A stretch of 64,000 bases of DNA from Pleodorina starrii (Eukaryota > Chlorophyta > Chlorophyceae > Chlamydomonadales > Volvocaceae). The position numbers were made by a program, and so were the translations under genes. Below the pieces are notes generated by a model. It did not search any database. It was not told the DNA's origin and saw only the letters and a program-made list of their open reading frames with translations. The stretch is from positions 248,001 through 312,000 of the forward strand of contig BRXU01000048.1 in assembly GCA_030267565.1 (NCBI GenBank), given 5' to 3'. Shown here one piece after another: positions 3,420 to 64,000 of the stretch (positions within the stretch are counted from its first letter, which is position 1; each line of letters starts with the position of its first letter).

Positions 3420-4349
3420 CAGCGCCTTGTCAAGATCCATGTTGACTTTATGCAGAACTAGCCGGCAGAGAAACTCATTCGCGAGTGCCGACCGTGGTGA
3501 GGGACCGGTGCGCTTGTAGGTCGTACTATTTCGGAAAATAGTACGGCACGCATGCTCAAGCGGACCAGCGCTATTCCCGCGCACATAAAAGGTATTCACA
3601 TAACTGCATGGCCTTGTATCGGTTCGTTATATGTGCCCCAGCAGCTTTGGTCACTTAGGCAGCTATTCATAAATGGACATGACCACGCAATTCTCAGAGC
3701 AATTACGCGTAGCACGGGGTTGCATTTAACAGCGCCTTGTCAAGATCCATGTTGACTTTATGCAGAACTAGCCGGCAGAGAAACTCATTCGGGAGTGCCG
3801 ACCGTGGTGAGGGACCTGTGCGCTTGTAGGTCGTACTATTTCGGAAAATAGTACGGCACGCATGCTCAAGCGGACCAGCGCTATTCCCGCGCACATAAAA
3901 GGTATTCACATAACTGCATGGCCTTGTATCGGTTCGTTATATGTGCCCCAGCAGCTTTGGTCACTTAGGCAGCTATTCATAAATGGACATGACCACGCAA
4001 TTCTCAGAGCAATTACGCGTAGCACGGGGTTGCATTTAACAGCGCCTTGTCAAGATCCATGTTGACTTTATGCAGAACTAGCCGGCAGAGAAACTCATTC
4101 GGGAGTGCCGACCGTGGTGAGGGACCTGTGCGCTTGTAGGTCGTACTATTTCGGAAAATAGTACGGCACACATGCTCAAGCGGACCAGCGCTATTCCCGC
4201 GCACATAGAAGGTATTCACATAACTGCATGGCCTTGTATCGGTTCGTTATATGTGCCCCAGCAGCTTTGGTCACTTAGGCAGCTATTCATAAATGGACAT
4301 GACCACGCAATTCTCAGAGCAATTACGCGTAGCACGGGATTGCATTTAA
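3420..4349. repeat. Three tandem copies of a 310-bp repeat
   Basis: Units 3420-3729, 3730-4039 and 4040-4349 are nearly identical, with a few substitutions such as gcgagtgcc to gggagtgcc in copies 2 and 3. Each unit contains a small hairpin with 9-bp arms GTACTATTT / AAATAGTAC around CGGA. Short 67-68 aa frames on both strands are a by-product of the repeat and show no domain. Confidence 0.95.
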
Positions 4350-4422
4350 CAAGCAGAGGACATCAAGACCGTGCGTGATATAGCACTCTTCGAGCTCGCG
4401 CGCTATGTTGCAGATTAGAAAG

Positions 4423-11902: not shown

Positions 11903-11982
11903 GCTCGGCTAGCTCAGTAGGTAGCTGAAGAGCGTACGGCAGTTTCGTGTAACATCATCATCTCAAAGATGGCCATCAAGTG
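11903..11982 (+). pseudogene. Decayed tRNA-Asn, copy 1
   Basis: Begins GCTCGGCTAGCTCAGTAGG, like the intact tRNA-Asn genes near the right end, but has four extra bases in the D-loop and a broken anticodon stem around CAGTTTC. The T arm has lost its pairing. It ends 3 nt before a tRNA-Ala 5' half, the same layout as the 761-bp array. Confidence 0.7.
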
Positions 11983-11985
11983 TAC

Positions 11986-12045
11986 GGGGTCGTAGCTCAA
12001 ATGGTAGAGCGCCCGCTTAGCATGCGAAGCTGAGCGCCGCAGTAC
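11986..12045 (+). pseudogene. tRNA-Ala(AGC) 5' half, interrupted in the intron by minisatellite
   Basis: Has the tRNA-Ala acceptor 5' strand, D arm, anticodon loop TTAGCA and the first part of the intron. It then runs into the 14-bp minisatellite and never reaches its own 3' half. Confidence 0.85.
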
Positions 12046-13575
12046 ACACGCGCACGTACACACGCACACGTGCACACGCACACGTACACACGCACACGTA
12101 CACACGCACACGTACACACGCACGTGTACACACGCACACGTACACACGCACACGTACACACGCACACGTACACACGCACACGTACACACGCACACGTACA
12201 CACGCACGTGTACCCACGCACGTGTACACACGCACACGTACACACGCACACGTACACACGCACACGTACACACGCACACGTACACACGCACACGCGCACA
12301 CGCACACGTACACACGCACACGTACACACGCACACGTACACGCGCACACGTACAAACGCACACGTACACACGCACACGTACACACGCACACGTACACACG
12401 CACACGTACACACGCACACGTACACACGCACACGTACACACGCACACGTACACACGCACACGTACACACGCACACGTACACACGCACACGTACACACGCA
12501 CACGTACACACGCACGTGTACACACGCACACGCACACACGCACACGTACACACGCACACGTACACACGCACACGTACACACGCACACGTACACACGCACA
12601 CGTACACACGCACACGTACACACGCACACGTACACACGCACACGTACACACGCACACGTACACACGCACACGTACACACGCACACGTACACACGCACGTG
12701 TACACACGCACACGCACACACGCACACGTACACACGCACACGTACACACGCACGTGTACACACGCACACGTACACACGCACACGTACACACGCACACGTA
12801 CACACGCACGTGTACACACGCACACGTACACACGCACACGTACACACGCACACGTACACACGCACACGTACACACGCACACGTACACACGCACGTGTACC
12901 CACGCACGTGTACACACGCACACGTACACACGCACACGTACACACGCACACGTACACGCGCACACGCGCACACGCACACGTACACACGCACACGTACACA
13001 CGCACACGTACACGCGCACACGTACAAACGCACACGTACACACGCACACGTACACACGCACACGTACACACGCACACGTACACACGCACACGTACACACG
13101 CACACGTACACACGCACACGTACACACGCACACGTACACACGCACACGTACACACGCACACGTACACACGCACGTGTACACACGCACACGTACACACGCA
13201 CACGTACACACGCACACGTACACACGCACACGTACACACGCACACGTACACACGCACACGTACACACGCACACGTACACACGCACACGTACACACGCACA
13301 CGTACACACGCACACGTACACACGCACACGTACACACGCACACGTACACACGCACGTGTACACACGCACACGCACACAAACACGTGTACACACGCACACG
13401 TACACACGCACGTGTACACACGCACACGTACACACGCACGTGTACACACGCACACGTACACACGCACACGTACACACGCACACGTACACACGCACACGTA
13501 CACACGCACACGTACACACGCACACGTACACACGCACACGTACACACGCACACGTACACACGCACGTGTACACAC
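12045..13575. repeat. 14-bp minisatellite, array 1 (about 109 units)
   Basis: Unit CGCACACGTACACA, with variant CGCACGTGTACACA and rare CCC, CGCG or AAA changes. Almost every base step alternates pyrimidine-purine. Open frames of around 500 codons on both strands are artefacts of the repeat. The pattern gtgtaccc recurs at 12208 and 12894, exactly 49 units apart, which shows higher-order structure. Confidence 0.98.
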
Positions 13576-13610
13576 TTACGCATCATCTCAAAGGTGGCCA
13601 TCAAGTGTAC

Positions 13611-13711
13611 GGGGTCGTAGCTCAAATGGTAGAGCGCCCGCTTAGCATGCGAAGCTGAGCGCCGCAGTACAAACTTGCGGGAGGTAGGGGGATTGATGCC
13701 CTCCGACTCCA
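13611..13711 (+). tRNA. tRNA-Ala(AGC) with 28-nt intron
   Basis: Complete cloverleaf: acceptor GGGGTCG/CGACTCC with one G-U, D stem GCTC/GAGC, anticodon stem CCCGC/GCGGG, loop TTAGCAT with anticodon AGC, T stem GGGGG/CCCTC and discriminator A. The intron sits at the canonical 37/38 position. The T-loop reads ATTGATG. No CCA is encoded. Confidence 0.9.
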
Positions 13712-13772
13712 GAACTGCATTGAACGATTTGCTCGCTATGTCCTGTCGAGGCATGTGCAGATTATGTGTACG

Positions 13773-13853
13773 GCTCGGCTAGCTCAGTCGGTAGCTGAAG
13801 AGCGTACGGCAGTTTCGTGTAACATCATCATCTCAATTATCGGCCATCAAGTG
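13773..13853 (+). pseudogene. Decayed tRNA-Asn, copy 2
   Basis: Starts GCTCGGCTAGCTCAGTCGG; enlarged D-loop and disrupted anticodon and T arms. Sits 3 nt before the tRNA-Ala 5' half at 13857. Confidence 0.7.
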
Positions 13854-13856
13854 TAC

Positions 13857-13916
13857 GGGGTCGTAGCTCAAATGGTAGAGCGCCCGCTTAGCATGCGAAG
13901 CTGAGCGCCGCAGTAC
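13857..13916 (+). pseudogene. tRNA-Ala(AGC) 5' half, interrupted by second minisatellite
   Basis: Same structure as the half at 11986: tRNA-Ala through the anticodon loop and part of the intron, then the minisatellite. Confidence 0.85.
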
Positions 13917-15406
13917 ACACGCGCACGTACACACGCACACGTGCACACGCACACGTACACACGCACACGTACACACGCACACGTACACACGCACGTGTAC
14001 ACACGCACACGTACACACGCACACGTACACACGCACACGTACACACGCACACGTACACACGCACACGTACACACGCACGTGTACCCACGCACGTGTACAC
14101 ACGCACACGTACACACGCACACGTACACACGCACACGTACACACGCACACGTACACACGCACACGCGCACACGCACACGTACACACGCACACGTACACAC
14201 GCACACGTACACGCGCACACGTACAAACGCACACGTACACACGCACACGTACACACGCACACGTACACACGCACACGTACACACGCACACGTACACACGC
14301 ACACGTACACACGCACACGTACACACGCACACGTACACACGCACACGTACACACGCACACGTACACACGCACACGTACACACGCACGAGTACACACGCAC
14401 ACGCACACACGCACACGTACACACGCACACGTACACACGCACACGTACACACGCACACGTACACACGCACACGTACACACGCACACGTACACACGCACAC
14501 GTACACACGCACACGTACACACGCACACGTACACACGCACACGTACACACGCACGTGTACACACGCACACGCACACACGCACACGTACACACGCACACGT
14601 ACACACGCACGTGTACACACGCACACGTACACACGCACACGTACACACGCACACGTACACACGCACGTGTACACACGCACACGTACACACGCACACGTAC
14701 ACACGCACACGTACACACGCACACGTACACACGCACACGTACACACGCACGTGTACCCACGCACGTGTACACACGCACACGTACACACGCACACGTACAC
14801 ACGCACACGTACACGCGCACACGCGCACACGCACACGTACACACGCACACGTACACACGCACACGTACACGCGCACACGTACAAACGCACACGTACACAC
14901 GCACACGTACACACGCACACGTACACACGCACACGTACACACGCACACGTACACACGCACACGTACACACGCACACGTACACACGCACACGTACACACGC
15001 ACACGTACACACGCACACGTACACACGCACGTGTACACACGCACACGTACACACGCACACGTACACACGCACACGTACACACGCACACGTACACACGCAC
15101 ACGTACACACGCACACGTACACACGCACACGTACACACGCACACGTACACACGCACACGTACACACGCACACGTACACACGCACACGTACACACGCACAC
15201 GTACACACGCACGTGTACACACGCACACGCACACAAACACGTGTACACACGCACACGTACACACGCACGTGTACACACGCACACGTACACACGCACGTGT
15301 ACACACGCACACGTACACACGCACACGTACACACGCACACGTACACACGCACACGTACACACGCACACGTACACACGCACACGTACACACGCACGTGTAC
15401 ACACTT
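13916..15406. repeat. 14-bp minisatellite, array 2 (about 106 units)
   Basis: Same unit and same order of variant units as array 1: gtgtaccc lies 222 bp from the tRNA start in both arrays. The internal recurrence is at 14079 and 14751, 48 units apart. It therefore arose by duplication of a whole inflated block and has since changed by only a few units. Confidence 0.98.
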
Positions 15407-15439
15407 ACGCATCATCTCAAAGGTGGCCATCAAGTGTAC

Positions 15440-15540
15440 GGGGTCGTAGCTCAAATGGTAGAGCGCCCGCTTAGCATGCGAAGCTGAGCGCCGCAGTACA
15501 AACTTGCGGGAGGTAGGGGGATTGATGCCCTCCGACTCCA
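15440..15540 (+). tRNA. tRNA-Ala(AGC) with 28-nt intron
   Basis: Complete and identical in structure to the copy at 13611, T-loop ATTGATG. Confidence 0.9.
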
Positions 15541-15601
15541 GAACTGCATTGAACGATTTGCTCGCTATGTCCTGTCGAGGCATGTGCAGATTATGTGTAC
15601 G

Positions 15602-15682
15602 GCTCGGCTAGCTCAGTCGGTAGCTGAAGAGCGTACGGCAGTTTCGTGTAACATCATCATCTCAATTATCGGCCATCAAGTG
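15602..15682 (+). pseudogene. Decayed tRNA-Asn, copy 3
   Basis: Same decayed form as copy 2, 3 nt upstream of the next tRNA-Ala. Confidence 0.7.
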
Positions 15683-15685
15683 TAC

Positions 15686-15786
15686 GGGGTCGTAGCTCAA
15701 ATGGTAGAGCGCCCGCTTAGCATGCGAAGCTGAGCGCCGCAGTATAAACTTGCGGGAGGTAGGGGGATCGATGCCCTCCGACTCCA
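15686..15786 (+). tRNA. tRNA-Ala(AGC) with 28-nt intron (15723-15750)
   Basis: Complete cloverleaf with T-loop ATCGATG as in the right-hand array; one base change inside the intron (GTATAAACT). Confidence 0.9.
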
Positions 15787-15847
15787 GAACTGCATTGAAC
15801 GATTCGCTCGCTATGTCCTGTCGAGGCATGTGCAGATTATGTGTACG

Positions 15848-15928
15848 GCTCGGCTAGCTCAGTCGGTAGCTGAAGAGCTTACGGCAGTTTCGTGTAACAT
15901 CATCATCTCAATTATTGGCCATCAAGTG
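15848..15928 (+). pseudogene. Decayed tRNA-Asn, copy 4
   Basis: As copy 2, with one further change (agagctt in place of agagcgt). Confidence 0.7.
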
Positions 15929-15931
15929 TAC

Positions 15932-16032
15932 GGGGTCGTAGCTCAAATGGTAGAGCGCCCGCTTAGCATGCGAAGCTGAGCGCCGCAGTACAAACTTGCG
16001 GGAGGTAGGGGGATCGATGCCCTCCGACTCCA
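15932..16032 (+). tRNA. tRNA-Ala(AGC) with 28-nt intron
   Basis: Complete cloverleaf, T-loop ATCGATG, discriminator A. The flanking sequence just downstream has changed slightly (aaaacttca). Confidence 0.9.
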
Positions 16033-16093
16033 AAACTTCATTGAACGATTTGCTCGCTATGTCCTGTCGAGGCATGTGCAGATTATGTGTACG

Positions 16094-16174
16094 GCTCGGC
16101 TAGCTCAGTCGGTAGCTGAAGAGCGTACGGCAGTTTCGTGTAACATCATCATCTCAATTATTGGCCATCAAGTG
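16094..16174 (+). pseudogene. Decayed tRNA-Asn, copy 5
   Basis: As copy 2; last one in this array. Confidence 0.7.
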
Positions 16175-16177
16175 TAC

Positions 16178-16261
16178 GGGGTCGTAGCTCAAATGGTAGA
16201 GCGCCCGCTTAGCATGCGAAGCTGAGCGCCGCAGTACAAACATGCGGGAGGTAGGGGGATC
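16178..16261 (+). pseudogene. tRNA-Ala(AGC) truncated at the T-loop
   Basis: Intact through the intron and 3' anticodon stem, then breaks off inside the T-loop (ggggatc followed by unrelated sequence). It marks the right edge of the array. Confidence 0.85.
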
Positions 16262-49566: not shown

Positions 49567-49648
49567 CATGTGAAACCCAGCCGCTCGATTGAGGCTGCTG
49601 TCGGTATTTGCTGCTTGCATCATGACCAATACAAGTATCCATCGGTCT

Positions 49649-49749
49649 TGGAGTCGGAGGGCATCGATCCCCCTACCTCCCGCATATTGTAACTGCGGCG
49701 CTCAGCTTCGCATGCTAAGCGGGCGCTCCACCATTTGAGCTACGACCCC
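49649..49749 (-). tRNA. tRNA-Ala(AGC), array copy 1
   Basis: 73-nt cloverleaf plus a 28-nt intron between positions 37 and 38. Stems as in the copy at 13611; intron differs slightly (ends TTACAATA). D-loop has A21G relative to the intact copies. Confidence 0.8.
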
Positions 49750-49752
49750 ATA

Positions 49753-49825
49753 CGCTCGATGACAGGTTCGAACTGTCGACCTTACGGTTAACAGCCGTAC
49801 GCTCTTCCGACTGAGATAACCGAGC
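49753..49825 (-). tRNA. tRNA-Asn(GTT), array copy 1, D-arm variant
   Basis: Intronless 73 nt: acceptor GCTCGGT/ATCGAGC, anticodon stem TACGG/CCGTA, loop CTGTTAA with anticodon GTT, T stem GACAG/CTGTC, loop TTCGAAC. G10U breaks the first D-stem pair and alters the A box; U20A also present. May be non-functional. Confidence 0.7.
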
Positions 49826-50409
49826 TCGACTGATGGGCCTCGACAGCACCCTCTCCAACCCTGCCCCGGCCCCGTATCAAGGAAACCCCGCCCACCAGCA
49901 GCAATCCGGGTTTCATTTCGTTGAGAGCCACATGCACGCAGGTCCCCACCGGCCGGTGATCTCATGACCATCCACACACAAGCAGCTACTTTTGAGAGTC
50001 GCACTGCTGCAACTGACATGCAGCAGTGAGTGGGCCCCGGGTAGACAACCGAAGCTGTGTCCAGCAAGCCAAACATCACAGGGGCCGGCCCGCTTGAGAA
50101 AGCAAGCAAGTATTTATATATGCAAAGCCAGGTTTGCAAAGCCAGGTTGCTTCTCGCGCATGAAAGTGCCAGCTGGATGGAGGTGATGGAGAACCACGCA
50201 TGTAAACGACGGAGCACATTTCATATGTTTTCGTGATGAATGACAGTAATAGCCATAGTGTGCAAACATGTGTCCAGGGCACAGCTTGAAAGTTCATCCC
50301 ATGTCAAGCACGTCCCATGTGAAACCCAGCCGCTCGATCGATCATCACTTGCAGGCTGCTGTCGGTATTTGCTGCTTGCATCATGACCAATACAAGTATC
50401 CATCGGTCT

Positions 50410-50510
50410 TGGAGTCGGAGGGCATCGATCCCCCTACCTCCCGCATATTGTAACTGCGGCGCTCAGCTTCGCATGCTAAGCGGGCGCTCTACCATTTGAG
50501 CTGCGACCCC
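50410..50510 (-). tRNA. tRNA-Ala(AGC), array copy 2
   Basis: 28-nt intron; U8C is the only change. Confidence 0.8.
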
Positions 50511-50513
50511 ATA

Positions 50514-50586
50514 CGCTCGATGACAGGTTCGAACTGTCGACCTTACGGTTAACAGCCGTACGCTCTACCGACTGAGCTAACCGAGC
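50514..50586 (-). tRNA. tRNA-Asn(GTT), array copy 2, intact
   Basis: All stems paired and A box TAGCTCAGTCGG intact; the only fully intact Asn copy in the left half. Confidence 0.92.
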
Positions 50587-51170
50587 TCGACTGATGGGCC
50601 TCGACAGCACCCTCTCCAACCCTGCCCCGGCCCCGTATCAAGGAAACCCCGCCCACCAGCAGCAATCCGGGTTTCATTTCGTTGAGAGCCACATGCACGC
50701 AGGTCCCCACCGGCCGGTGATCTCATGACCATCCACACACAAGCAGCTACTTTTGAGAGTCGCACTGCTGCAACTGACATGCAGCAGTGAGTGGGCCCCG
50801 GGTAGACAACCGAAGCTGTGTCCAGCAAGCCAAACATCACAGGGGCCGGCCCGCTTGAGAAAGCAAGCAAGTATTTATATATGCAAAGCCAGGTTTGCAA
50901 AGCCAGGTTGCTTCTCGCGCATGAAAGTGCCAGCTGGATGGAGGTGATGGAGAACCACGCATGTAAACGACGGAGCACATTTCATATGTTTTCGTGATGA
51001 ATGACAGTAATAGCCATAGTGTGCAAACATGTGTCCAGGGCACAGCTTGAAAGTTCATCCCATGTCAAGCACGTCCCATGTGAAACCCAGCCGCTCGATC
51101 GATCATCACTTGCAGGCTGCTGTCGGTATTTGCTGCTTGCATCATGACCAATACAAGTATCCATCGGTCT

Positions 51171-51271
51171 TGGAGTCGGAGGGCATCGATCCCCCTACCT
51201 CCCGCATATTGTAACTGCGGCGCTCAGCTTCGCATGCTAAGCGGGCGCTCCACCATTTGAGCTACGACCCC
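51171..51271 (-). tRNA. tRNA-Ala(AGC), array copy 3
   Basis: 28-nt intron; A21G. Confidence 0.8.
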
Positions 51272-51274
51272 ATA

Positions 51275-51347
51275 CGCTCGATGACAGGTTCGAACTGTCG
51301 ACCTTACGGTTAACAGCCGTACGCTCTTCCGACTGAGATAACCGAGC
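51275..51347 (-). tRNA. tRNA-Asn(GTT), array copy 3, D-arm variant
   Basis: G10U and U20A. Confidence 0.7.
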
Positions 51348-51931
51348 TCGACTGATGGGCCTCGACAGCACCCTCTCCAACCCTGCCCCGGCCCCGTATC
51401 AAGGAAACCCCGCCCACCAGCAGCAATCCGGGTTTCATTTCGTTGAGAGCCACATGCACGCAGGTCCCCACCGGCCGGTGATCTCATGACCATCCACACA
51501 CAAGCAGCTACTTTTGAGAGTCGCACTGCTGCAACTGACATGCAGCAGTGAGTGGGCCCCGGGTAGACAACCGAAGCTGTGTCCAGCAAGCCAAACATCA
51601 CAGGGGCCGGCCCGCTTGAGAAAGCAAGCAAGTATTTATATATGCAAAGCCAGGTTTGCAAAGCCAGGTTGCTTCTCGCGCATGAAAGTGCCAGCTGGAT
51701 GGAGGTGATGGAGAACCACGCATGTAAACGACGGAGCACATTTCATATGTTTTCGTGATGAATGACAGTAATAGCCATAGTGTGCAAACATGTGTCCAGG
51801 GCACAGCTTGAAAGTTCATCCCATGTCAAGCACGTCCCATGTGAAACCCAGCCGCTCGATCGATCATCACTTGCAGGCTGCTGTCGGTATTTGCTGCTTG
51901 CATCATGACCAATACAAGTATCCATCGGTCT

Positions 51932-52032
51932 TGGAGTCGGAGGGCATCGATCCCCCTACCTCCCGCATATTGTAACTGCGGCGCTCAGCTTCGCATGCTA
52001 AGCGGGCGCTCCACCATTTGAGCTACGACCCC
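51932..52032 (-). tRNA. tRNA-Ala(AGC), array copy 4
   Basis: 28-nt intron; A21G. Confidence 0.8.
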
Positions 52033-52035
52033 ATA

Positions 52036-52108
52036 CGCTCGATGACAGGTTCGAACTGTCGACCTTACGGTTAACAGCCGTACGCTCTTCCGACTGAGAT
52101 AACCGAGC
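52036..52108 (-). tRNA. tRNA-Asn(GTT), array copy 4, D-arm variant
   Basis: G10U and U20A. Confidence 0.7.
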
Positions 52109-52692
52109 TCGACTGATGGGCCTCGACAGCACCCTCTCCAACCCTGCCCCGGCCCCGTATCAAGGAAACCCCGCCCACCAGCAGCAATCCGGGTTTCATT
52201 TCGTTGAGAGCCACATGCACGCAGGTCCCCACCGGCCGGTGATCTCATGACCATCCACACACAAGCAGCTACTTTTGAGAGTCACACTGCTGCAACTGAC
52301 ATGCAGCAGTGAGTGGGCCCCGGGTAGACAACCGAAGCTGTGTCCAGCAAGCCAAACATCACAGGGGCCGGCCCGCTTGAGAAAGCAAGCAAGTATTTAT
52401 ATATGCAAAGCCAGGTTTGCAAAGCCAGGTTGCTTCTCGCGCATGAAAGTGCCAGCTGGATGGAGGTGATGGAGAACCACGCATGTAAACGACGGAGCAC
52501 ATTTCATATGTTTTCGTGATGAATGACAGTAATAGCCATAGTGTGCAAACATGTGTCCAGGGCACAGCTTGAAAGTTCATCCCATGTCAAGCACGTCCCA
52601 TGTGAAACCCAGCCGCTCGATCGATCATCACTTGCAGGCTGCTGTCGGTATTTGCTGCTTGCATCATGACCAATACAAGTATCCATCGGTCT

Positions 52693-52793
52693 TGGAGTCG
52701 GAGGGCATCGATCCCCCTACCTCCCGCATATTGTAACTGCGGCGCTCAGCTTCGCATGCTAAGCGGGCGCTCCACCATTTGAGCTACGACCCC
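52693..52793 (-). tRNA. tRNA-Ala(AGC), array copy 5
   Basis: 28-nt intron; A21G. Confidence 0.8.
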
Positions 52794-52796
52794 ATA

Positions 52797-52869
52797 CGCT
52801 CGATGACAGGTTCGAACTGTCGACCTTACGGTTAACAGCCGTACGCTCTTCCGACTGAGATAACCGAGC
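52797..52869 (-). tRNA. tRNA-Asn(GTT), array copy 5, D-arm variant
   Basis: G10U and U20A. Confidence 0.7.
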
Positions 52870-53453
52870 TCGACTGATGGGCCTCGACAGCACCCTCTCC
52901 AACCCTGCCCCGGCCCCGTATCAAGGAAACCCCGCCCACCAGCAGCAATCCGGGTTTCATTTCGTTGAGAGCCACATGCACGCAGGTCCCCACCGGCCGG
53001 TGATCTCATGACCATCCACACACAAGCAGCTACTTTTGAGAGTCGCACTGCTGCAACTGACATGCAGCAGTGAGTGGGCCCCGGGTAGACAACCGAAGCT
53101 GTGTCCAGCAAGCCAAACATCACAGGGGCCGGCCCGCTTGAGAAAGCAAGCAAGTATTTATATATGCAAAGCCAGGTTTGCAAAGCCAGGTTGCTTCTCG
53201 CGCATGAAAGTGCCAGCTGGATGGAGGTGATGGAGAACCACGCATGTAAACGACGGAGCACATTTCATATGTTTTCGTGATGAATGACAGTAATAGCCAT
53301 AGTGTGCAAACATGTGTCCAGGGCACAGCTTGAAAGTTCATCCCATGTCAAGCACGTCCCATGTGAAACCCAGCCGCTCGATCGATCATCACTTGCAGGC
53401 TGCTGTCGGTATTTGCTGCTTGCATCATGACCAATACAAGTATCCATCGGTCT

Positions 53454-53554
53454 TGGAGTCGGAGGGCATTGATCCCCCTACCTCCCGCATATTGTAACTG
53501 CGGCGCTCAGCTTCGCATGCTAAGCGGGCGCTCTACCATTTGAGCTACGACCCC
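53454..53554 (-). tRNA. tRNA-Ala(AGC), array copy 6
   Basis: 28-nt intron; D arm intact; T-loop G57A. Confidence 0.82.
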
Positions 53555-53557
53555 ATA

Positions 53558-53630
53558 CGCTCGATGACAGGTTCGAACTGTCGACCTTACGGTTAACAGC
53601 CGTACGCTCTACCGACTGAGATAACCGAGC
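53558..53630 (-). tRNA. tRNA-Asn(GTT), array copy 6, D-arm variant
   Basis: G10U only. Confidence 0.72.
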
Positions 53631-54214
53631 TCGACTGATGGGCCTCGACAGCACCCTCTCCAACCCTGCCCCGGCCCCGTATCAAGGAAACCCCGCCCAC
53701 CAGCAGCAATCCGGGTTTCATTTCGTTGAGAGCCACATGCACGCAGGTCCCCACCGGCCGGTGATCTCATGACCATCCACACACAAGCAGCTACTTTTGA
53801 GAGTCGCACTGCTGCAACTGACATGCAGCAGTGAGTGGGCCCCGGGTAGACAACCGAAGCTGTGTCCAGCAAGCCAAACATCACAGGGGCCGGCCCGCTT
53901 GAGAAAGCAAGCAAGTATTTATATGTGCAAAGCCAGGTTTGCAAAGCCAGGTTGCTTCTCGCGCATGAAAGTGCCAGCTGGATGGAGGTGATGGAGAACC
54001 ACGCATGTAAACGACGGAGCACATTTCATATGTTTTCGTGATGAATGACAGTAATAGCCATAGTGTGCAAACATGTGTCCAGGGCACAGCTTGAAAGTTC
54101 ATCCCATGTCAAGCACGTCCCATGTGAAACCCAGCCGCTCGATCGATCATCACTTGCAGGCTGCTGTCGGTATTTGCTGCTTGCATCATGACCAATACAA
54201 GTATCCATCGGTCT

Positions 54215-54315
54215 TGGAGTCGGAGGGCATCGATCCCCCTACCTCCCGCATATTGTAACTGCGGCGCTCAGCTTCGCATGCTAAGCGGGCGCTCCACCAT
54301 TTGATCTACGACCCC
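54215..54315 (-). tRNA. tRNA-Ala(AGC), array copy 7, D-arm variant
   Basis: 28-nt intron; A21G and C11A, the latter breaking a D-stem pair. Confidence 0.7.
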
Positions 54316-54318
54316 ATA

Positions 54319-54391
54319 CGCTCGATGACAGGTTCGAACTGTCGACCTTACGGTTAACAGCCATACGCTCTACCGACTGAGATAACCGAGC
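54319..54391 (-). tRNA. tRNA-Asn(GTT), array copy 7, variant
   Basis: G10U, plus C29U leaving a U-G pair in the anticodon stem. Confidence 0.7.
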
Positions 54392-54975
54392 TCGACTGAT
54401 GGGCCTCGACAGCACCCTCTCCAACCCTGCCCCGGCCCCGTATCAAGGAAACCCCGCCCACCAGCAGCAATCCGGGTTTCATTTCGTTGAGAGCCACATG
54501 CACGCAGGTCCCCACCGGCCGGTGATCTCATGACCATCCACACACAAGCAGCTACTTTTGAGAGTCGCACTGCTGCAACTGACATGCAGCAGTGAGTGGG
54601 CCCCGGGTAGACAACCGAAGCTGTGTCCAGCAAGCCAAACATCACAGGGGCCGGCCCGCTTGAGAAAGCAAGCAAGTATTTATATATGCAAAGCCAGGTT
54701 TGCAAAGCCAGGTTGCTTCTCGCGCATGAAAGTGCCAGCTGGATGGAGGTGATGGAGAACCACGCATGTAAACGACGGAGCACATTTCATATGTTTTCGT
54801 GATGAATGACAGTAATAGCCATAGTGTGCAAACATGTGTCCAGGGCACAGCTTGAAAGTTCATCCCATGTCAAGCACGTCCCATGTGAAACCCAGCCGCT
54901 CGATCGATCATCACTTGCAGGCTGCTGTCGGTATTTGCTGCTTGCATCATGACCAATACAAGTATCCATCGGTCT

Positions 54976-55076
54976 TGGAGTCGGAGGGCATCGATCCCCC
55001 TACCTCCCGCATATTGTAACTGCGGCGCTCAGCTTCGCATGCTAAGCGGGCGCTCTACCATTTGAGCTACGACCCC
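54976..55076 (-). tRNA. tRNA-Ala(AGC), array copy 8, intact
   Basis: 28-nt intron; no change from the consensus copy. Confidence 0.92.
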
Positions 55077-55079
55077 ATA

Positions 55080-55152
55080 CGCTCGATGACAGGTTCGAAC
55101 TGTCGACCTTACGGTTAACAGCCGTACGCTCTACCGACTGAGATAACCGAGC
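55080..55152 (-). tRNA. tRNA-Asn(GTT), array copy 8, D-arm variant
   Basis: G10U only. Confidence 0.72.
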
Positions 55153-55736
55153 TCGACTGATGGGCCTCGACAGCACCCTCTCCAACCCTGCCCCGGCCCC
55201 GTATCAAGGAAACCCCGCCCACCAGCAGCAATCCGGGTTTCATTTCGTTGAGAGCCACATGCACGCAGGTCCCCACCGGCCGGTGATCTCATGACCATCC
55301 ACACACAAGCAGCTACTTTTGAGAGTCGCACTGCTGCAACTGACATGCAGCAGTGAGTGGGCCCCGGGTAGACAACCGAAGCTGTGTCCAGCAAGCCAAA
55401 CATCACAGGGGCCGGCCCGCTTGAGAAAGCAAGCAAGTATTTATATGTGCAAAGCCAGGTTTGCAAAGCCAGGTTGCTTCTCGCGCATGAAAGTGCCAGC
55501 TGGATGGAGGTGATGGAGAACCACGCATGTAAACGACGGAGCACATTTCATATGTTTTCGTGATGAATGACAGTAATAGCCATAGTGTGCAAACATGTGT
55601 CCAGGGCACAGCTTGAAAGTTCATCCCATGTCAAGCACGTCCCATGTGAAACCCAGCCGCTCGATCGATCATCACTTGCAGGCTGCTGTCGGTATTTGCT
55701 GCTTGCATCATGACCAATACAAGTATCCATCGGTCT

Positions 55737-55837
55737 TGGAGTCGGAGGGCATCGATCCCCCTACCTCCCGCATATTGTAACTGCGGCGCTCAGCTTCGCA
55801 TGCTAAGCGGGCGCTCTACCATTTGAGCTACGACCCC
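55737..55837 (-). tRNA. tRNA-Ala(AGC), array copy 9, intact
   Basis: 28-nt intron; consensus sequence. Confidence 0.92.
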
Positions 55838-55840
55838 ATA

Positions 55841-55913
55841 CGCTCGATGACAGGTTCGAACTGTCGACCTTACGGTTAACAGCCATACGCTCTACCGACT
55901 GAGATAACCGAGC
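55841..55913 (-). tRNA. tRNA-Asn(GTT), array copy 9, variant
   Basis: G10U and C29U, the same combination as copy 7. Confidence 0.7.
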
Positions 55914-56497
55914 TCGACTGATGGGCCTCGACAGCACCCTCTCCAACCCTGCCCCGGCCCCGTATCAAGGAAACCCCGCCCACCAGCAGCAATCCGGGTT
56001 TCATTTCGTTGAGAGCCACATGCACGCAGGTCCCCACCGGCCGGTGATCTCATGACCATCCACACACAAGCAGCTACTTTTGAGAGTCGCACTGCTGCAA
56101 CTGACATGCAGCAGTGAGTGGGCCCCGGGTAGACAACCGAAGCTGTGTCCAGCAAGCCAAACATCACAGGGGCCGGCCCGCTTGAGAAAGCAAGCAAGTA
56201 TTTATATATGCAAAGCCAGGTTTGCAAAGCCAGGTTGCTTCTCGCGCATGAAAGTGCCAGCTGGATGGAGGTGATGGAGAACCACGCATGTAAACGACGG
56301 AGCACATTTCATATGTTTTCGTGATGAATGACAGTAATAGCCATAGTGTGCAAACATGTGTCCAGGGCACAGCTTGAAAGTTCATCCCATGTCAAGCACG
56401 TCCCATGTGAAACCCAGCCGCTCGATCGATCATCACTTGCAGGCTGCTGTCGGTATTTGCTGCTTGCATCATGACCAATACAAGTATCCATCGGTCT

Positions 56498-56598
56498 TGG
56501 AGTCGGAGGGCATCGATCCCCCTACCTCCCGCATATTGTAACTGCGGCGCTCAGCTTCGCATGCTAAGCGGGCGCTCCACCATTTGAGCTACGACCCC
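56498..56598 (-). tRNA. tRNA-Ala(AGC), array copy 10
   Basis: 28-nt intron; A21G. Confidence 0.8.
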
Positions 56599-56601
56599 AT
56601 A

Positions 56602-56674
56602 CGCTCGATGACAGGTTCGAACTGTCGACCTTACGGTTAACAGCCGTACGCTCTTCCGACTGAGATAACCGAGC
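56602..56674 (-). tRNA. tRNA-Asn(GTT), array copy 10, D-arm variant
   Basis: G10U and U20A. Confidence 0.7.
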
Positions 56675-57258
56675 TCGACTGATGGGCCTCGACAGCACCC
56701 TCTCCAACCCTGCCCCGGCCCCGTATCAAGGAAACCCCGCCCACCAGCAGCAATCCGGGTTTCATTTCGTTGAGAGCCACATGCACGCAGGTCCCCACCG
56801 GCCGGTGATCTCATGACCATCCACACACAAGCAGCTACTTTTGAGAGTCGCACTGCTGCAACTGACATGCAGCAGTGAGTGGGCCCCGGGTAGACAACCG
56901 AAGCTGTGTCCAGCAAGCCAAACATCACAGGGGCCGGCCCGCTTGAGAAAGCAAGCAAGTATTTATATATGCAAAGCCAGGTTTGCAAAGCCAGGTTGCT
57001 TCTCGCGCATGAAAGTGCCAGCTGGATGGAGGTGATGGAGAACCACGCATGTAAACGACGGAGCACATTTCATATGTTTTCGTGATGAATGACAGTAATA
57101 GCCATAGTGTGCAAACATGTGTCCAGGGCACAGCTTGAAAGTTCATCCCATGTCAAGCACGTCCCATGTGAAACCCAGCCGCTCGATCGATCATCACTTG
57201 CAGGCTGCTGTCGGTATTTGCTGCTTGCATCATGACCAATACAAGTATCCATCGGTCT

Positions 57259-57359
57259 TGGAGTCGGAGGGCATCGATCCCCCTACCTCCCGCATATTGT
57301 AACTGCGGCGCTCAGCTTCGCATGCTAAGCGGGCGCTCTACCATTTGAGCTACGACCCC
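57259..57359 (-). tRNA. tRNA-Ala(AGC), array copy 11, intact
   Basis: 28-nt intron; consensus sequence. Confidence 0.92.
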
Positions 57360-57362
57360 ATA

Positions 57363-57435
57363 CGCTCGATGACAGGTTCGAACTGTCGACCTTACGGTTA
57401 ACAGCCGTACGCTCTACCGACTGAGATAACCGAGC
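57363..57435 (-). tRNA. tRNA-Asn(GTT), array copy 11, D-arm variant
   Basis: G10U only. Confidence 0.72.
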
Positions 57436-58019
57436 TCGACTGATGGGCCTCGACAGCACCCTCTCCAACCCTGCCCCGGCCCCGTATCAAGGAAACCCCG
57501 CCCACCAGCAGCAATCCGGGTTTCATTTCGTTGAGAGCCACATGCACGCAGGTCCCCACCGGCCGGTGATCTCATGACCATCCACACACAAGCAGCTACT
57601 TTTGAGAGTCGCACTGCTGCAACTGACATGCAGCAGTGAGTGGGCCCCGGGTAGACAACCGAAGCTGTGTCCAGCAAGCCAAACATCACAGGGGCCGGCC
57701 CGCTTGAGAAAGCAAGCAAGTATTTATATATGCAAAGCCAGGTTTGCAAAGCCAGGTTGCTTCTCGCGCATGAAAGTGCCAGCTGGATGGAGGTGATGGA
57801 GAACCACGCATGTAAACGACGGAGCACATTTCATATGTTTTCGTGATGAATGACAGTAATAGCCATAGTGTGCAAACATGTGTCCAGGGCACAGCTTGAA
57901 AGTTCATCCCATGTCAAGCACGTCCCATGTGAAACCCAGCCGCTCGATCGATCATCACTTGCAGGCTGCTGTCGGTATTTGCTGCTTGCATCATGACCAA
58001 TACAAGTATCCATCGGTCT

Positions 58020-58120
58020 TGGAGTCGGAGGGCATCGATCCCCCTACCTCCCGCATATTGTAACTGCGGCGCTCAGCTTCGCATGCTAAGCGGGCGCTCT
58101 ACCATTTGAGCTACGACCCC
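58020..58120 (-). tRNA. tRNA-Ala(AGC), array copy 12, intact
   Basis: 28-nt intron; consensus sequence. Confidence 0.92.
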
Positions 58121-58123
58121 ATA

Positions 58124-58196
58124 CGCTCGATGACAGGTTCGAACTGTCGACCTTACGGTTAACAGCCGTACGCTCTACCGACTGAGATAACCGAGC
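58124..58196 (-). tRNA. tRNA-Asn(GTT), array copy 12, D-arm variant
   Basis: G10U only. Confidence 0.72.
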
Positions 58197-58780
58197 TCGA
58201 CTGATGGGCCTCGACAGCACCCTCTCCAACCCTGCCCCGGCCCCGTATCAAGGAAACCCCGCCCACCAGCAGCAATCCGGGTTTCATTTCGTTGAGAGCC
58301 ACATGCACGCAGGTCCCCACCGGCCGGTGATCTCATGACCATCCACACACAAGCAGCTACTTTTGAGAGTCGCACTGCTGCAACTGACATGCAGCAGTGA
58401 GTGGGCCCCGGGTAGACAACCGAAGCTGTGTCCAGCAAGCCAAACATCACAGGGGCCGGCCCGCTTGAGAAAGCAAGCAAGTATTTATATATGCAAAGCC
58501 AGGTTTGCAAAGCCAGGTTGCTTCTCGCGCATGAAAGTGCCAGCTGGATGGAGGTGATGGAGAACCACGCATGTAAACGACGGAGCACATTTCATATGTT
58601 TTCGTGATGAATGACAGTAATAGCCATAGTGTGCAAACATGTGTCCAGGGCACAGCTTGAAAGTTCATCCCATGTCAAGCACGTCCCATGTGAAACCCAG
58701 CCGCTCGATCGATCATCACTTGCAGGCTGCTGTCGGTATTTGCTGCTTGCATCATGACCAATACAAGTATCCATCGGTCT

Positions 58781-58881
58781 TGGAGTCGGAGGGCATCGAT
58801 CCCCCTACCTCCCGCATATTGTAACTGCGGCGCTCAGCTTCGCATGCTAAGCGGGCGCTCTACCATTTGAGCTACGACCCC
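58781..58881 (-). tRNA. tRNA-Ala(AGC), array copy 13, intact
   Basis: 28-nt intron; consensus. From this copy on both tRNAs are intact. Confidence 0.93.
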
Positions 58882-58884
58882 ATA

Positions 58885-58957
58885 CGCTCGATGACAGGTT
58901 CGAACTGTCGACCTTACGGTTAACAGCCGTACGCTCTACCGACTGAGCTAACCGAGC
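58885..58957 (-). tRNA. tRNA-Asn(GTT), array copy 13, intact
   Basis: All stems paired, A and B boxes intact. Confidence 0.94.
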
Positions 58958-59541
58958 TCGACTGATGGGCCTCGACAGCACCCTCTCCAACCCTGCCCCG
59001 GCCCCGTATCAAGGAAACCCCGCCCACCAGCAGCAATCCGGGTTTCATTTCGTTGAGAGCCACATGCACGCAGGTCCCCACCGGCCGGTGATCTCATGAC
59101 CATCCACACACAAGCAGCTACTTTTGAGAGTCGCACTGCTGCAACTGACATGCAGCAGTGAGTGGGCCCCGGGTAGACAACCGAAGCTGTGTCCAGCAAG
59201 CCAAACATCACAGGGGCCGGCCCGCTTGAGAAAGCAAGCAAGTATTTATATATGCAAAGCCAGGTTTGCAAAGCCAGGTTGCTTCTCGCGCATGAAAGTG
59301 CCAGCTGGATGGAGGTGATGGAGAACCACGCATGTAAACGACGGAGCACATTTCATATGTTTTCGTGATGAATGACAGTAATAGCCATAGTGTGCAAACA
59401 TGTGTCCAGGGCACAGCTTGAAAGTTCATCCCATGTCAAGCACGTCCCATGTGAAACCCAGCCGCTCGATCGATCATCACTTGCAGGCTGCTGTCGGTAT
59501 TTGCTGCTTGCATCATGACCAATACAAGTATCCATCGGTCT

Positions 59542-59642
59542 TGGAGTCGGAGGGCATCGATCCCCCTACCTCCCGCATATTGTAACTGCGGCGCTCAGCT
59601 TCGCATGCTAAGCGGGCGCTCTACCATTTGAGCTACGACCCC
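59542..59642 (-). tRNA. tRNA-Ala(AGC), array copy 14, intact
   Basis: 28-nt intron; consensus sequence. Confidence 0.93.
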
Positions 59643-59645
59643 ATA

Positions 59646-59718
59646 CGCTCGATGACAGGTTCGAACTGTCGACCTTACGGTTAACAGCCGTACGCTCTAC
59701 CGACTGAGCTAACCGAGC
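59646..59718 (-). tRNA. tRNA-Asn(GTT), array copy 14, intact
   Basis: Consensus sequence. Confidence 0.94.
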
Positions 59719-60302
59719 TCGACTGATGGGCCTCGACAGCACCCTCTCCAACCCTGCCCCGGCCCCGTATCAAGGAAACCCCGCCCACCAGCAGCAATCC
59801 GGGTTTCATTTCGTTGAGAGCCACATGCACGCAGGTCCCCACCGGCCGGTGATCTCATGACCATCCACACACAAGCAGCTACTTTTGAGAGTCGCACTGC
59901 TGCAACTGACATGCAGCAGTGAGTGGGCCCCGGGTAGACAACCGAAGCTGTGTCCAGCAAGCCAAACATCACAGGGGCCGGCCCGCTTGAGAAAGCAAGC
60001 AAGTATTTATATATGCAAAGCCAGGTTTGCAAAGCCAGGTTGCTTCTCGCGCATGAAAGTGCCAGCTGGATGGAGGTGATGGAGAACCACGCATGTAAAC
60101 GACGGAGCACATTTCATATGTTTTCGTGATGAATGACAGTAATAGCCATAGTGTGCAAACATGTGTCCAGGGCACAGCTTGAAAGTTCATCCCATGTCAA
60201 GCACGTCCCATGTGAAACCCAGCCGCTCGATCGATCATCACTTGCAGGCTGCTGTCGGTATTTGCTGCTTGCATCATGACCAATACAAGTATCCATCGGT
60301 CT

Positions 60303-60403
60303 TGGAGTCGGAGGGCATCGATCCCCCTACCTCCCGCATATTGTAACTGCGGCGCTCAGCTTCGCATGCTAAGCGGGCGCTCTACCATTTGAGCTACGAC
60401 CCC
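60303..60403 (-). tRNA. tRNA-Ala(AGC), array copy 15, intact
   Basis: 28-nt intron; consensus sequence. Confidence 0.93.
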
Positions 60404-60406
60404 ATA

Positions 60407-60479
60407 CGCTCGATGACAGGTTCGAACTGTCGACCTTACGGTTAACAGCCGTACGCTCTACCGACTGAGCTAACCGAGC
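60407..60479 (-). tRNA. tRNA-Asn(GTT), array copy 15, intact
   Basis: Consensus sequence. Confidence 0.94.
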
Positions 60480-61063
60480 TCGACTGATGGGCCTCGACAG
60501 CACCCTCTCCAACCCTGCCCCGGCCCCGTATCAAGGAAACCCCGCCCACCAGCAGCAATCCGGGTTTCATTTCGTTGAGAGCCACATGCACGCAGGTCCC
60601 CACCGGCCGGTGATCTCATGACCATCCACACACAAGCAGCTACTTTTGAGAGTCGCACTGCTGCAACTGACATGCAGCAGTGAGTGGGCCCCGGGTAGAC
60701 AACCGAAGCTGTGTCCAGCAAGCCAAACATCACAGGGGCCGGCCCGCTTGAGAAAGCAAGCAAGTATTTATATATGCAAAGCCAGGTTTGCAAAGCCAGG
60801 TTGCTTCTCGCGCATGAAAGTGCCAGCTGGATGGAGGTGATGGAGAACCACGCATGTAAACGACGGAGCACATTTCATATGTTTTCGTGATGAATGACAG
60901 TAATAGCCATAGTGTGCAAACATGTGTCCAGGGCACAGCTTGAAAGTTCATCCCATGTCAAGCACGTCCCATGTGAAACCCAGCCGCTCGATCGATCATC
61001 ACTTGCAGGCTGCTGTCGGTATTTGCTGCTTGCATCATGACCAATACAAGTATCCATCGGTCT

Positions 61064-61164
61064 TGGAGTCGGAGGGCATCGATCCCCCTACCTCCCGCAT
61101 ATTGTAACTGCGGCGCTCAGCTTCGCATGCTAAGCGGGCGCTCTACCATTTGAGCTACGACCCC
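61064..61164 (-). tRNA. tRNA-Ala(AGC), array copy 16, intact
   Basis: 28-nt intron; consensus sequence. Confidence 0.93.
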
Positions 61165-61167
61165 ATA

Positions 61168-61240
61168 CGCTCGATGACAGGTTCGAACTGTCGACCTTAC
61201 GGTTAACAGCCGTACGCTCTACCGACTGAGCTAACCGAGC
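61168..61240 (-). tRNA. tRNA-Asn(GTT), array copy 16, intact
   Basis: Consensus sequence. Confidence 0.94.
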
Positions 61241-61824
61241 TCGACTGATGGGCCTCGACAGCACCCTCTCCAACCCTGCCCCGGCCCCGTATCAAGGAAA
61301 CCCCGCCCACCAGCAGCAATCCGGGTTTCATTTCGTTGAGAGCCACATGCACGCAGGTCCCCACCGGCCGGTGATCTCATGACCATCCACACACAAGCAG
61401 CTACTTTTGAGAGTCGCACTGCTGCAACTGACATGCAGCAGTGAGTGGGCCCCGGGTAGACAACCGAAGCTGTGTCCAGCAAGCCAAACATCACAGGGGC
61501 CGGCCCGCTTGAGAAAGCAAGCAAGTATTTATATATGCAAAGCCAGGTTTGCAAAGCCAGGTTGCTTCTCGCGCATGAAAGTGCCAGCTGGATGGAGGTG
61601 ATGGAGAACCACGCATGTAAACGACGGAGCACATTTCATATGTTTTCGTGATGAATGACAGTAATAGCCATAGTGTGCAAACATGTGTCCAGGGCACAGC
61701 TTGAAAGTTCATCCCATGTCAAGCACGTCCCATGTGAAACCCAGCCGCTCGATCGATCATCACTTGCAGGCTGCTGTCGGTATTTGCTGCTTGCATCATG
61801 ACCAATACAAGTATCCATCGGTCT

Positions 61825-61925
61825 TGGAGTCGGAGGGCATCGATCCCCCTACCTCCCGCATATTGTAACTGCGGCGCTCAGCTTCGCATGCTAAGCGGGC
61901 GCTCTACCATTTGAGCTACGACCCC
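61825..61925 (-). tRNA. tRNA-Ala(AGC), array copy 17, intact
   Basis: 28-nt intron; consensus sequence. Confidence 0.93.
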
Positions 61926-61928
61926 ATA

Positions 61929-62001
61929 CGCTCGATGACAGGTTCGAACTGTCGACCTTACGGTTAACAGCCGTACGCTCTACCGACTGAGCTAACCGAG
62001 C
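61929..62001 (-). tRNA. tRNA-Asn(GTT), array copy 17, intact
   Basis: Consensus sequence. Confidence 0.94.
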
Positions 62002-62585
62002 TCGACTGATGGGCCTCGACAGCACCCTCTCCAACCCTGCCCCGGCCCCGTATCAAGGAAACCCCGCCCACCAGCAGCAATCCGGGTTTCATTTCGTTGA
62101 GAGCCACATGCACGCAGGTCCCCACCGGCCGGTGATCTCATGACCATCCACACACAAGCAGCTACTTTTGAGAGTCGCACTGCTGCAACTGACATGCAGC
62201 AGTGAGTGGGCCCCGGGTAGACAACCGAAGCTGTGTCCAGCAAGCCAAACATCACAGGGGCCGGCCCGCTTGAGAAAGCAAGCAAGTATTTATATATGCA
62301 AAGCCAGGTTTGCAAAGCCAGGTTGCTTCTCGCGCATGAAAGTGCCAGCTGGATGGAGGTGATGGAGAACCACGCATGTAAACGACGGAGCACATTTCAT
62401 ATGTTTTCGTGATGAATGACAGTAATAGCCATAGTGTGCAAACATGTGTCCAGGGCACAGCTTGAAAGTTCATCCCATGTCAAGCACGTCCCATGTGAAA
62501 CCCAGCCGCTCGATCGATCATCACTTGCAGGCTGCTGTCGGTATTTGCTGCTTGCATCATGACCAATACAAGTATCCATCGGTCT

Positions 62586-62686
62586 TGGAGTCGGAGGGCA
62601 TCGATCCCCCTACCTCCCGCATATTGTAACTGCGGCGCTCAGCTTCGCATGCTAAGCGGGCGCTCTACCATTTGAGCTACGACCCC
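62586..62686 (-). tRNA. tRNA-Ala(AGC), array copy 18, intact
   Basis: 28-nt intron; consensus sequence. Confidence 0.93.
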
Positions 62687-62689
62687 ATA

Positions 62690-62762
62690 CGCTCGATGAC
62701 AGGTTCGAACTGTCGACCTTACGGTTAACAGCCGTACGCTCTACCGACTGAGCTAACCGAGC
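62690..62762 (-). tRNA. tRNA-Asn(GTT), array copy 18, intact
   Basis: Consensus sequence. Confidence 0.94.
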
Positions 62763-63346
62763 TCGACTGATGGGCCTCGACAGCACCCTCTCCAACCCTG
62801 CCCCGGCCCCGTATCAAGGAAACCCCGCCCACCAGCAGCAATCCGGGTTTCATTTCGTTGAGAGCCACATGCACGCAGGTCCCCACCGGCCGGTGATCTC
62901 ATGACCATCCACACACAAGCAGCTACTTTTGAGAGTCGCACTGCTGCAACTGACATGCAGCAGTGAGTGGGCCCCGGGTAGACAACCGAAGCTGTGTCCA
63001 GCAAGCCAAACATCACAGGGGCCGGCCCGCTTGAGAAAGCAAGCAAGTATTTATATATGCAAAGCCAGGTTTGCAAAGCCAGGTTGCTTCTCGCGCATGA
63101 AAGTGCCAGCTGGATGGAGGTGATGGAGAACCACGCATGTAAACGACGGAGCACATTTCATATGTTTTCGTGATGAATGACAGTAATAGCCATAGTGTGC
63201 AAACATGTGTCCAGGGCACAGCTTGAAAGTTCATCCCATGTCAAGCACGTCCCATGTGAAACCCAGCCGCTCGATCGATCATCACTTGCAGGCTGCTGTC
63301 GGTATTTGCTGCTTGCATCATGACCAATACAAGTATCCATCGGTCT

Positions 63347-63447
63347 TGGAGTCGGAGGGCATCGATCCCCCTACCTCCCGCATATTGTAACTGCGGCGCT
63401 CAGCTTCGCATGCTAAGCGGGCGCTCTACCATTTGAGCTACGACCCC
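63347..63447 (-). tRNA. tRNA-Ala(AGC), array copy 19, intact
   Basis: 28-nt intron; consensus sequence. Confidence 0.93.
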
Positions 63448-63450
63448 ATA

Positions 63451-63523
63451 CGCTCGATGACAGGTTCGAACTGTCGACCTTACGGTTAACAGCCGTACGC
63501 TCTACCGACTGAGCTAACCGAGC
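63451..63523 (-). tRNA. tRNA-Asn(GTT), array copy 19, intact
   Basis: Consensus sequence. The unit continues past the end of the window. Confidence 0.94.
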
Positions 63524-64000
63524 TCGACTGATGGGCCTCGACAGCACCCTCTCCAACCCTGCCCCGGCCCCGTATCAAGGAAACCCCGCCCACCAGCAGC
63601 AATCCGGGTTTCATTTCGTTGAGAGCCACATGCACGCAGGTCCCCACCGGCCGGTGATCTCATGACCATCCACACACAAGCAGCTACTTTTGAGAGTCGC
63701 ACTGCTGCAACTGACATGCAGCAGTGAGTGGGCCCCGGGTAGACAACCGAAGCTGTGTCCAGCAAGCCAAACATCACAGGGGCCGGCCCGCTTGAGAAAG
63801 CAAGCAAGGATTTATATATGCAAAGCCAGGTTTGCAAAGCCAGGTTGCTTCTCGCGCATGAAAGTGCCAGCTGGATGGAGGTGATGGAGAACCACGCATG
63901 TAAACGACGGAGCACATTTCATATGTTTTCGTGATGAATGACAGTAATAGCCATAGTGTGCAAACATGTGTCCAGGGCACAGCTTGAAAGTTCATCCCAT

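Follow-up and report, generated by a model that had tools for sequence, protein, structure and literature searches.

Tandem arrays of tRNA genes are already known as a kind. In the SYY cluster on chromosome 1 of Arabidopsis (tRNA-Ser/Tyr/Tyr), a multi-tRNA unit with an intron-bearing member is repeated in tandem; its core is rich in the major copy, its variable flanks hold more minor copies and pseudogenes, its introns tie it to dispersed genes, and it is silent in most tissues and active in root-cap cells (PMC12308677). The tRNA arrays of Entamoeba are likewise tandem repeats of multi-tRNA units, mostly uniform per isolate, for which concerted evolution was proposed; almost all tRNA genes of E. 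histolytica are arrayed, and short repeats lie between the genes in this species and in E. dispar (PMC2652664). A variable tRNA-bearing repeat at human 1q23.3 has 9 to 43 units per allele (PMC4041453), tandem clusters of plants and Chlamydomonas repeat two to five isotypes (Ath, Cre and Cpu in that paper's codes; PMC12652284), and 41% of tRNA genes (tDNAs) in Volvox and 56% in Chlamydomonas lie in clusters (PMC2888827). Here we describe an array of tRNA-Asn/tRNA-Ala pairs in the green alga Pleodorina starrii (Volvocaceae), which reaches into the right end of a 64,000-nucleotide stretch of contig BRXU01000048.1 (C48:248001-312000, hereafter the window, from a genome of 136,057,477 bp in 95 contigs; positions without a prefix are those of the window). 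We read it, with moderate confidence, as a terminator-less tRNA pair that has expanded locally in the manner of a satellite, one block being homogeneous and one edge in decay, rather than as a product of selection for tRNA dosage.

The array resembles SYY in its head-to-tail multi-tRNA unit with an intron-bearing member (33 units, 761-bp period), in introns that tie it to dispersed genes, and in its anatomy of a homogeneous core and a variable edge with damaged genes, with decay at the left edge only. Unlike SYY, it holds other tRNAs, in a unit of two genes that lie 3 nt apart; the array itself is free of TTTT. Whereas E. histolytica has almost all of its tRNA genes in arrays, P. starrii keeps dispersed copies of the same tRNAs (Asn, Ala, Lys, Glu and Trp were counted), and Tandem Repeats Finder listed in the array spacer only one 14-bp repeat of two copies, in contrast to the short repeats of the two Entamoeba species. 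The human repeat differs in its 7.3-kb, CTCF-binding unit, for which a boundary role was proposed from conservation of the CTCF site (PMC4041453). The principal features of the array within the window are as follows:

49567..64000, continuing to ~C48:323116, minus strand: tRNA-Asn/tRNA-Ala pairs in tandem with a 761-bp period, 19 of the 33 units starting in the window
49567..58686, minus strand: left block, in which all 12 units have one or both tRNAs changed and 11 carry G10U in tRNA-Asn
58687..64000, minus strand: start of the homogeneous block, whose 21 units (7 with starts inside the window, 14 with starts past its edge) have canonical forms of both tRNAs
58885..58957, minus strand: tRNA-Asn(GTT), intact example (ARAGORN, Rfam)
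58781..58881, minus strand: tRNA-Ala, read as Ala(AGC), intact example containing a 28-nt intron and following the tRNA-Asn after 3 nt (Rfam)
49753..49825, minus strand: leftmost tRNA-Asn, which carries both G10U and U20A
49649..49749, minus strand: tRNA-Ala of the leftmost unit; the first TTTT on the same strand lies 1,476 nt downstream

Within the window there are 19 unit starts, from 49567 to 63253, spaced by 761 bp except for a first step of 749 bp, and shifting the window array by 761 bp left 13,619 of 13,673 positions identical, far above chance. The nineteen near-identical units, single strand and constant 3-nt gap reported by a first-pass annotation of the window were borne out; the array itself is larger, its 33 unit starts occupying C48:297567-321907 at intervals of 761 bp (31 steps) or 749 bp (one step), and ends at about C48:323116, ~11 kb past the window edge, for an overall length of ~25 kb. 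Each unit encodes, on the minus strand, tRNA-Asn(GTT) followed after 3 nt by the intron-bearing tRNA-Ala (unit coordinates: Ala 95-195, Asn 199-271). ARAGORN identified 19 tRNA-Asn(GTT) on the minus strand of the window array, and Rfam at its gathering score recovered 19/19 Asn and 17/19 Ala, so that 36 of the 38 tRNA genes previously counted there pass; the two Ala copies that fall short bear point changes. When introns were allowed, ARAGORN called some array Ala copies Ile(AAT) and missed others; we took tRNA-Ile(AAT) as an artefact of this mode, which also labelled dispersed Ala genes Ile, Val, Leu or Ala. In our reading, the gene is a predicted Ala(AGC) in which a 28-nt intron follows position 37 and G3 pairs with U70. 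Two sister copies, at 15686 and 15932, were called Ala(agc) by ARAGORN, also with an intron of 28 nt.

RNA polymerase III (Pol III) normally terminates in a run of T, for which the shortest length reported is four in human but five or six in yeast (PMC4937561). The array (C48:297567-322444) is devoid of TTTT (T4) on its transcribed strand, as are the 1,475 nt beyond its last gene, the first T4 lying 1,476 nt past the last Ala. By comparison, of 28 terminal tRNA genes sampled outside arrays, 20 have T4 within 40 nt (11/15 and 9/13 in two samples), against 5% of random 40-nt stretches of C48. This count omits loci L018 and L019, the first gene of each pair, a Thr gene that lies within the Trp array (L045), and a nearby 246-bp cluster, which itself contains no TTTT; genes recurring in L015 and L017 were counted once. 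As 16% of shuffles of the array-spacer composition also lack T4, what carries weight is that the proximal T-run is missing, a single ancestral state present in 33 copies. In Chlamydomonas, short T-runs reportedly follow most tRNA genes and close genes are said to be cotranscribed, though nothing here depends on this.

Sequence change in the array is sparse and uneven. The 31 complete units (first and last excluded) show 0-4 differences per 761 bp from their own consensus, at 12 variable sites, and neighbouring units share variants. Both tRNAs are canonical in 21 of the 33 units, and at least one is changed in the other 12. Seven of the 12 sites fall inside the tRNA genes, which make up 174 bp or 23% of the unit (P = 0.009, binomial); gene positions 8-21, around box A, account for five of the seven (a post hoc remark). 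Because tRNA-gene sites are more variable than spacer, purifying selection is not visible inside the array. The G10U change found in the tRNA-Asn of 11 units loses the G10-C25 D-stem pair and a conserved box A base (in our position numbering); in the computed fold of this form the D arm is absent, and the canonical Asn fold is also short of a full cloverleaf. The canonical Asn form of the array occurs unchanged in all three dispersed Asn-Ala pairs of the genome, as does its Ala 3′ exon; the Ala 5′ exon string occurs in one of the three. Gene conversion from dispersed copies was considered as a source of the tRNA variants and set aside, no donor being seen by eye among the copies read, a non-exhaustive set.

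The dispersed pairs also bear on the origin of the unit. Their gene gaps are 2, 3 and 5 nt, and a T-run begins 3-6 nt after Ala in 3/3, with none before Ala; on these grounds the array pair likely had a dicistronic origin. The very short gap between the array genes, free of a T-run terminator, is typical of a dicistronic gene; the T-run that should follow the second gene is missing in the array and present in all three dispersed pairs. Short-gap Ile-Ala and Gly-Ala pairs are also present in the genome. The first-pass annotation had proposed a dicistronic precursor with the promoter boxes of tRNA-Asn serving both genes. The three dispersed pairs support the origin, but the Asn boxes may not serve both genes alone, as Ala has A- and B-box-like sequences of its own (by eye).

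An origin close to the present site is suggested by a related cluster 33 kb from the array, and by its interrupted neighbour:

15410..16261, plus strand (opposite to the array): 246-bp cluster with tRNA-Ala carrying the most similar intron, and a broken tRNA-Asn
11903..15404, plus strand: Asn-Ala pair broken up by two blocks of a 14-bp minisatellite, both starting within the tRNA-Ala intron

Among the introns aligned, that of the 246-bp cluster is nearest to the array intron (scores 20-22, the next 17.5). This similarity, together with copies interrupted by the minisatellite, points to a local origin with repeated rounds of amplification. The minisatellite (GTACACACGCACAC, 12042-15404) forms two similar blocks, each starting in the intron of a tRNA-Ala gene, which is thereby broken. 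To look for the unit elsewhere, its 581-bp spacer was searched against the genome (very common words being ignored by the search), yielding 35 matches from 34 scored candidates, every one in the array. Mobile spread in the manner of a short interspersed nuclear element (SINE) was therefore rejected: dispersed whole-unit copies, the mark of tRNA-derived mobile elements (SINE or Helenus-like, PMC10886601), were not found. Of the earlier suggestion that the unit spreads as a satellite, local expansion is thus upheld, and presence elsewhere in the genome was not detected by the spacer query. The last unit is interrupted by an inserted element (C48:322445-323026, or L032:445-1026), after which unit sequence picks up again to ~323116. 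This element comprises three copies of a 62-bp palindrome and a B-box-like GGTTCGATTCC (by eye); the repeated GGCCC that flanks it may be a target-site duplication. The observed/expected CpG ratio is 0.65 in the spacer, against 0.73 and 0.90 in the stretches compared to the left and right, a weak hint only of methylation.

Core searches allowing up to three mismatches, whose counts are lower bounds, placed the array among several of its kind. Of at least 39 Asn cores detected, 33 belong to the array and 6 are dispersed; of at least 51 Ala cores, the array accounts for 33 and the nearby cluster for 7, the other 11 being dispersed. Trp-Glu arrays on contigs C3 and C59 hold 56 of 59 detected Trp and 54 of 60 detected Glu cores, and an array of tRNA-Lys(CTT) on C2 holds 35 of 44 Lys cores, which leaves 3, 6 and 9 cores, respectively, outside arrays and clusters. 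The existence of these arrays suggests a process not tuned to codon demand. Candidate “Asn arrays” on C2 were ruled out, as ARAGORN assigned them to tRNA-Lys(CTT) and tRNA-Arg(TCG); the Arg array has five genes (C2:6.519 Mb). The Lys array (L041-L043, C2:6.651-6.736 Mb) has units of ~1.4-1.55 kb. Units of the long tRNA-Trp(CCA)/tRNA-Glu(CTC) array on C3 (L045 and L046, C3:1-125 kb) measure ~1.78 kb, with gaps; its position at the start of the contig possibly marks a chromosome end or an assembly break. On C59, two adjacent Trp-Glu units (L047, C59:21483 and 23260) carry a Glu-like tRNA with the anticodon CTA (amber) and T6 or T7 downstream, a form seen in 2 of the 60 Glu-type cores. In the Lys array the first T4 lies 117 or 329 nt downstream in 10/10 sampled genes, none having one within 40 nt, whereas dispersed Lys genes have T4 within 38 nt in 9/9. 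As the Lys array also lacks a proximal T-run, tRNA genes could repeatedly lose termination on the way to becoming satellite DNA, although T-runs persist in the Arg, Trp and Glu arrays.

Under the favored local expansion, the starting point would be an ancestral dicistronic Asn-Ala pair, of the kind still dispersed with terminators, enclosed in a 761-bp segment that did not include its terminator. This segment would then have multiplied at its own site through unequal exchange, gene conversion or slippage at stalled forks; for Entamoeba, replication barriers have been discussed as what makes tRNA genes hot spots of recombination (PMC2652664). The block from C48:306687 onward would have been homogenised recently while the left edge drifted. 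The anatomy, the homogeneity, the missing T-runs and the decay at the edge are observed in the sequence, and the mode of growth and a low output are what the account supposes. The array would be mostly silent or yield read-through precursors, and the dispersed genes found (6 Asn, 11 Ala) could supply the cell; given the activity of SYY in root-cap cells, silence should not be assumed to be absolute. Several results weigh against this account. Eight of the 28 sampled non-array tRNAs also lack T4 within 40 nt, 16% of the spacer shuffles contain none, and T4 starts within 8 nt in the sampled genes of the Arg (5/5), Trp (12/12) and Glu-type (9/9) arrays. Both tRNAs stay canonical in 21 units, though low divergence leaves little time for drift; there are few variable sites, some of them common to several units by descent; and the excess of change in tRNA genes may reflect transcription-linked mutation, i.e., an active array. 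Weaker constraint on tRNA genes was dropped as a general array rule, the results being mixed: variable sites numbered 8/145 in genes vs 40/1630 elsewhere in the Trp-Glu array (P = 0.053, six units) and, in the opposite direction, 4/73 in genes vs 167/1340 in spacer in the Lys array (P = 0.09, six units), with three Trp units and one Lys unit dropped for length.

Selection for dosage, suggested in the first-pass annotation, would keep many copies for the supply of tRNA-Asn and tRNA-Ala, perhaps in some cells or stages only, as SYY in root tips. The share of detected cores held by the array (33/39 Asn, 33/51 Ala), the canonical tRNAs encoded by 21 units and the precedent of SYY reactivation (PMC12308677) are what such selection would lead one to expect. 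Trp codons are generally rare, yet a Trp array exists too, and the lack of a proximal T-run in every unit, the changed tRNAs of 12/33 units and the greater variability of tRNA sites than spacer weaken the case further, so that we consider dosage unlikely. It is more doubtful still that the array acts as a terminator-less Pol III landscape, which polymerase could enter at any Asn promoter and meet no T4 for up to 26 kb, giving long multi-unit read-through RNA or having a role only through TFIIIC/Pol III binding. Another proposal, to which we give somewhat less credence again, is a chromatin or replication element whose dense box A/B sites would recruit TFIIIC or Pol III and form a boundary, as the first-pass annotation had also suggested, or a fork barrier, regardless of tRNA output. 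Sixty-six tRNA genes in 25 kb (33 pairs, changed copies included) would suit that role, missing terminators would matter little to it, and the human tRNA repeat was proposed as a boundary (PMC4041453), but box A is damaged in 11/33 Asn copies. Finally, the copy number could be wrong through collapse or false expansion, or copies could have been altered by short-read polishing: the NIES-4479 assembly (95 contigs, 136.1 Mbp, PacBio long reads with Illumina polishing) merges two assemblies (PMC10256686), and a 25-kb array may outrun many reads. Since the long reads were PacBio high-fidelity (PMC10256686), unit variants lie in ordered blocks and non-repeat sequence flanks the array at both ends, an artefact is very improbable.

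The array is undescribed in the literature matches listed for the P. starrii assembly and for tandem tRNA genes of Volvox carteri and green algae, a coverage outside which most subscription papers fall; the word “tRNA” is absent from the main text, as available, of the assembly paper (PMC10256686). Likewise, no description of the terminator-less state of this array and the Lys array was met in the literature covered, other known arrays not having been compared for it. If the favored local expansion holds, one genome illustrates how essential tRNA genes may turn satellite-like by tandem growth, a missing terminator and edge decay, and tRNA gene counts could overstate the supply of Asn, Ala, Trp, Glu and Lys tRNAs in P. 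starrii. The marked variants of the array permit direct tests of its expression. Elsewhere in the window, no Pfam family was found in 7 of the 8 open frames scanned; a mitochondrial-carrier gene matches PLESTB_001774000 at 99% over 24% of the frame, and a 310-bp unit is repeated three times at 3420-4351 with 99% matches.

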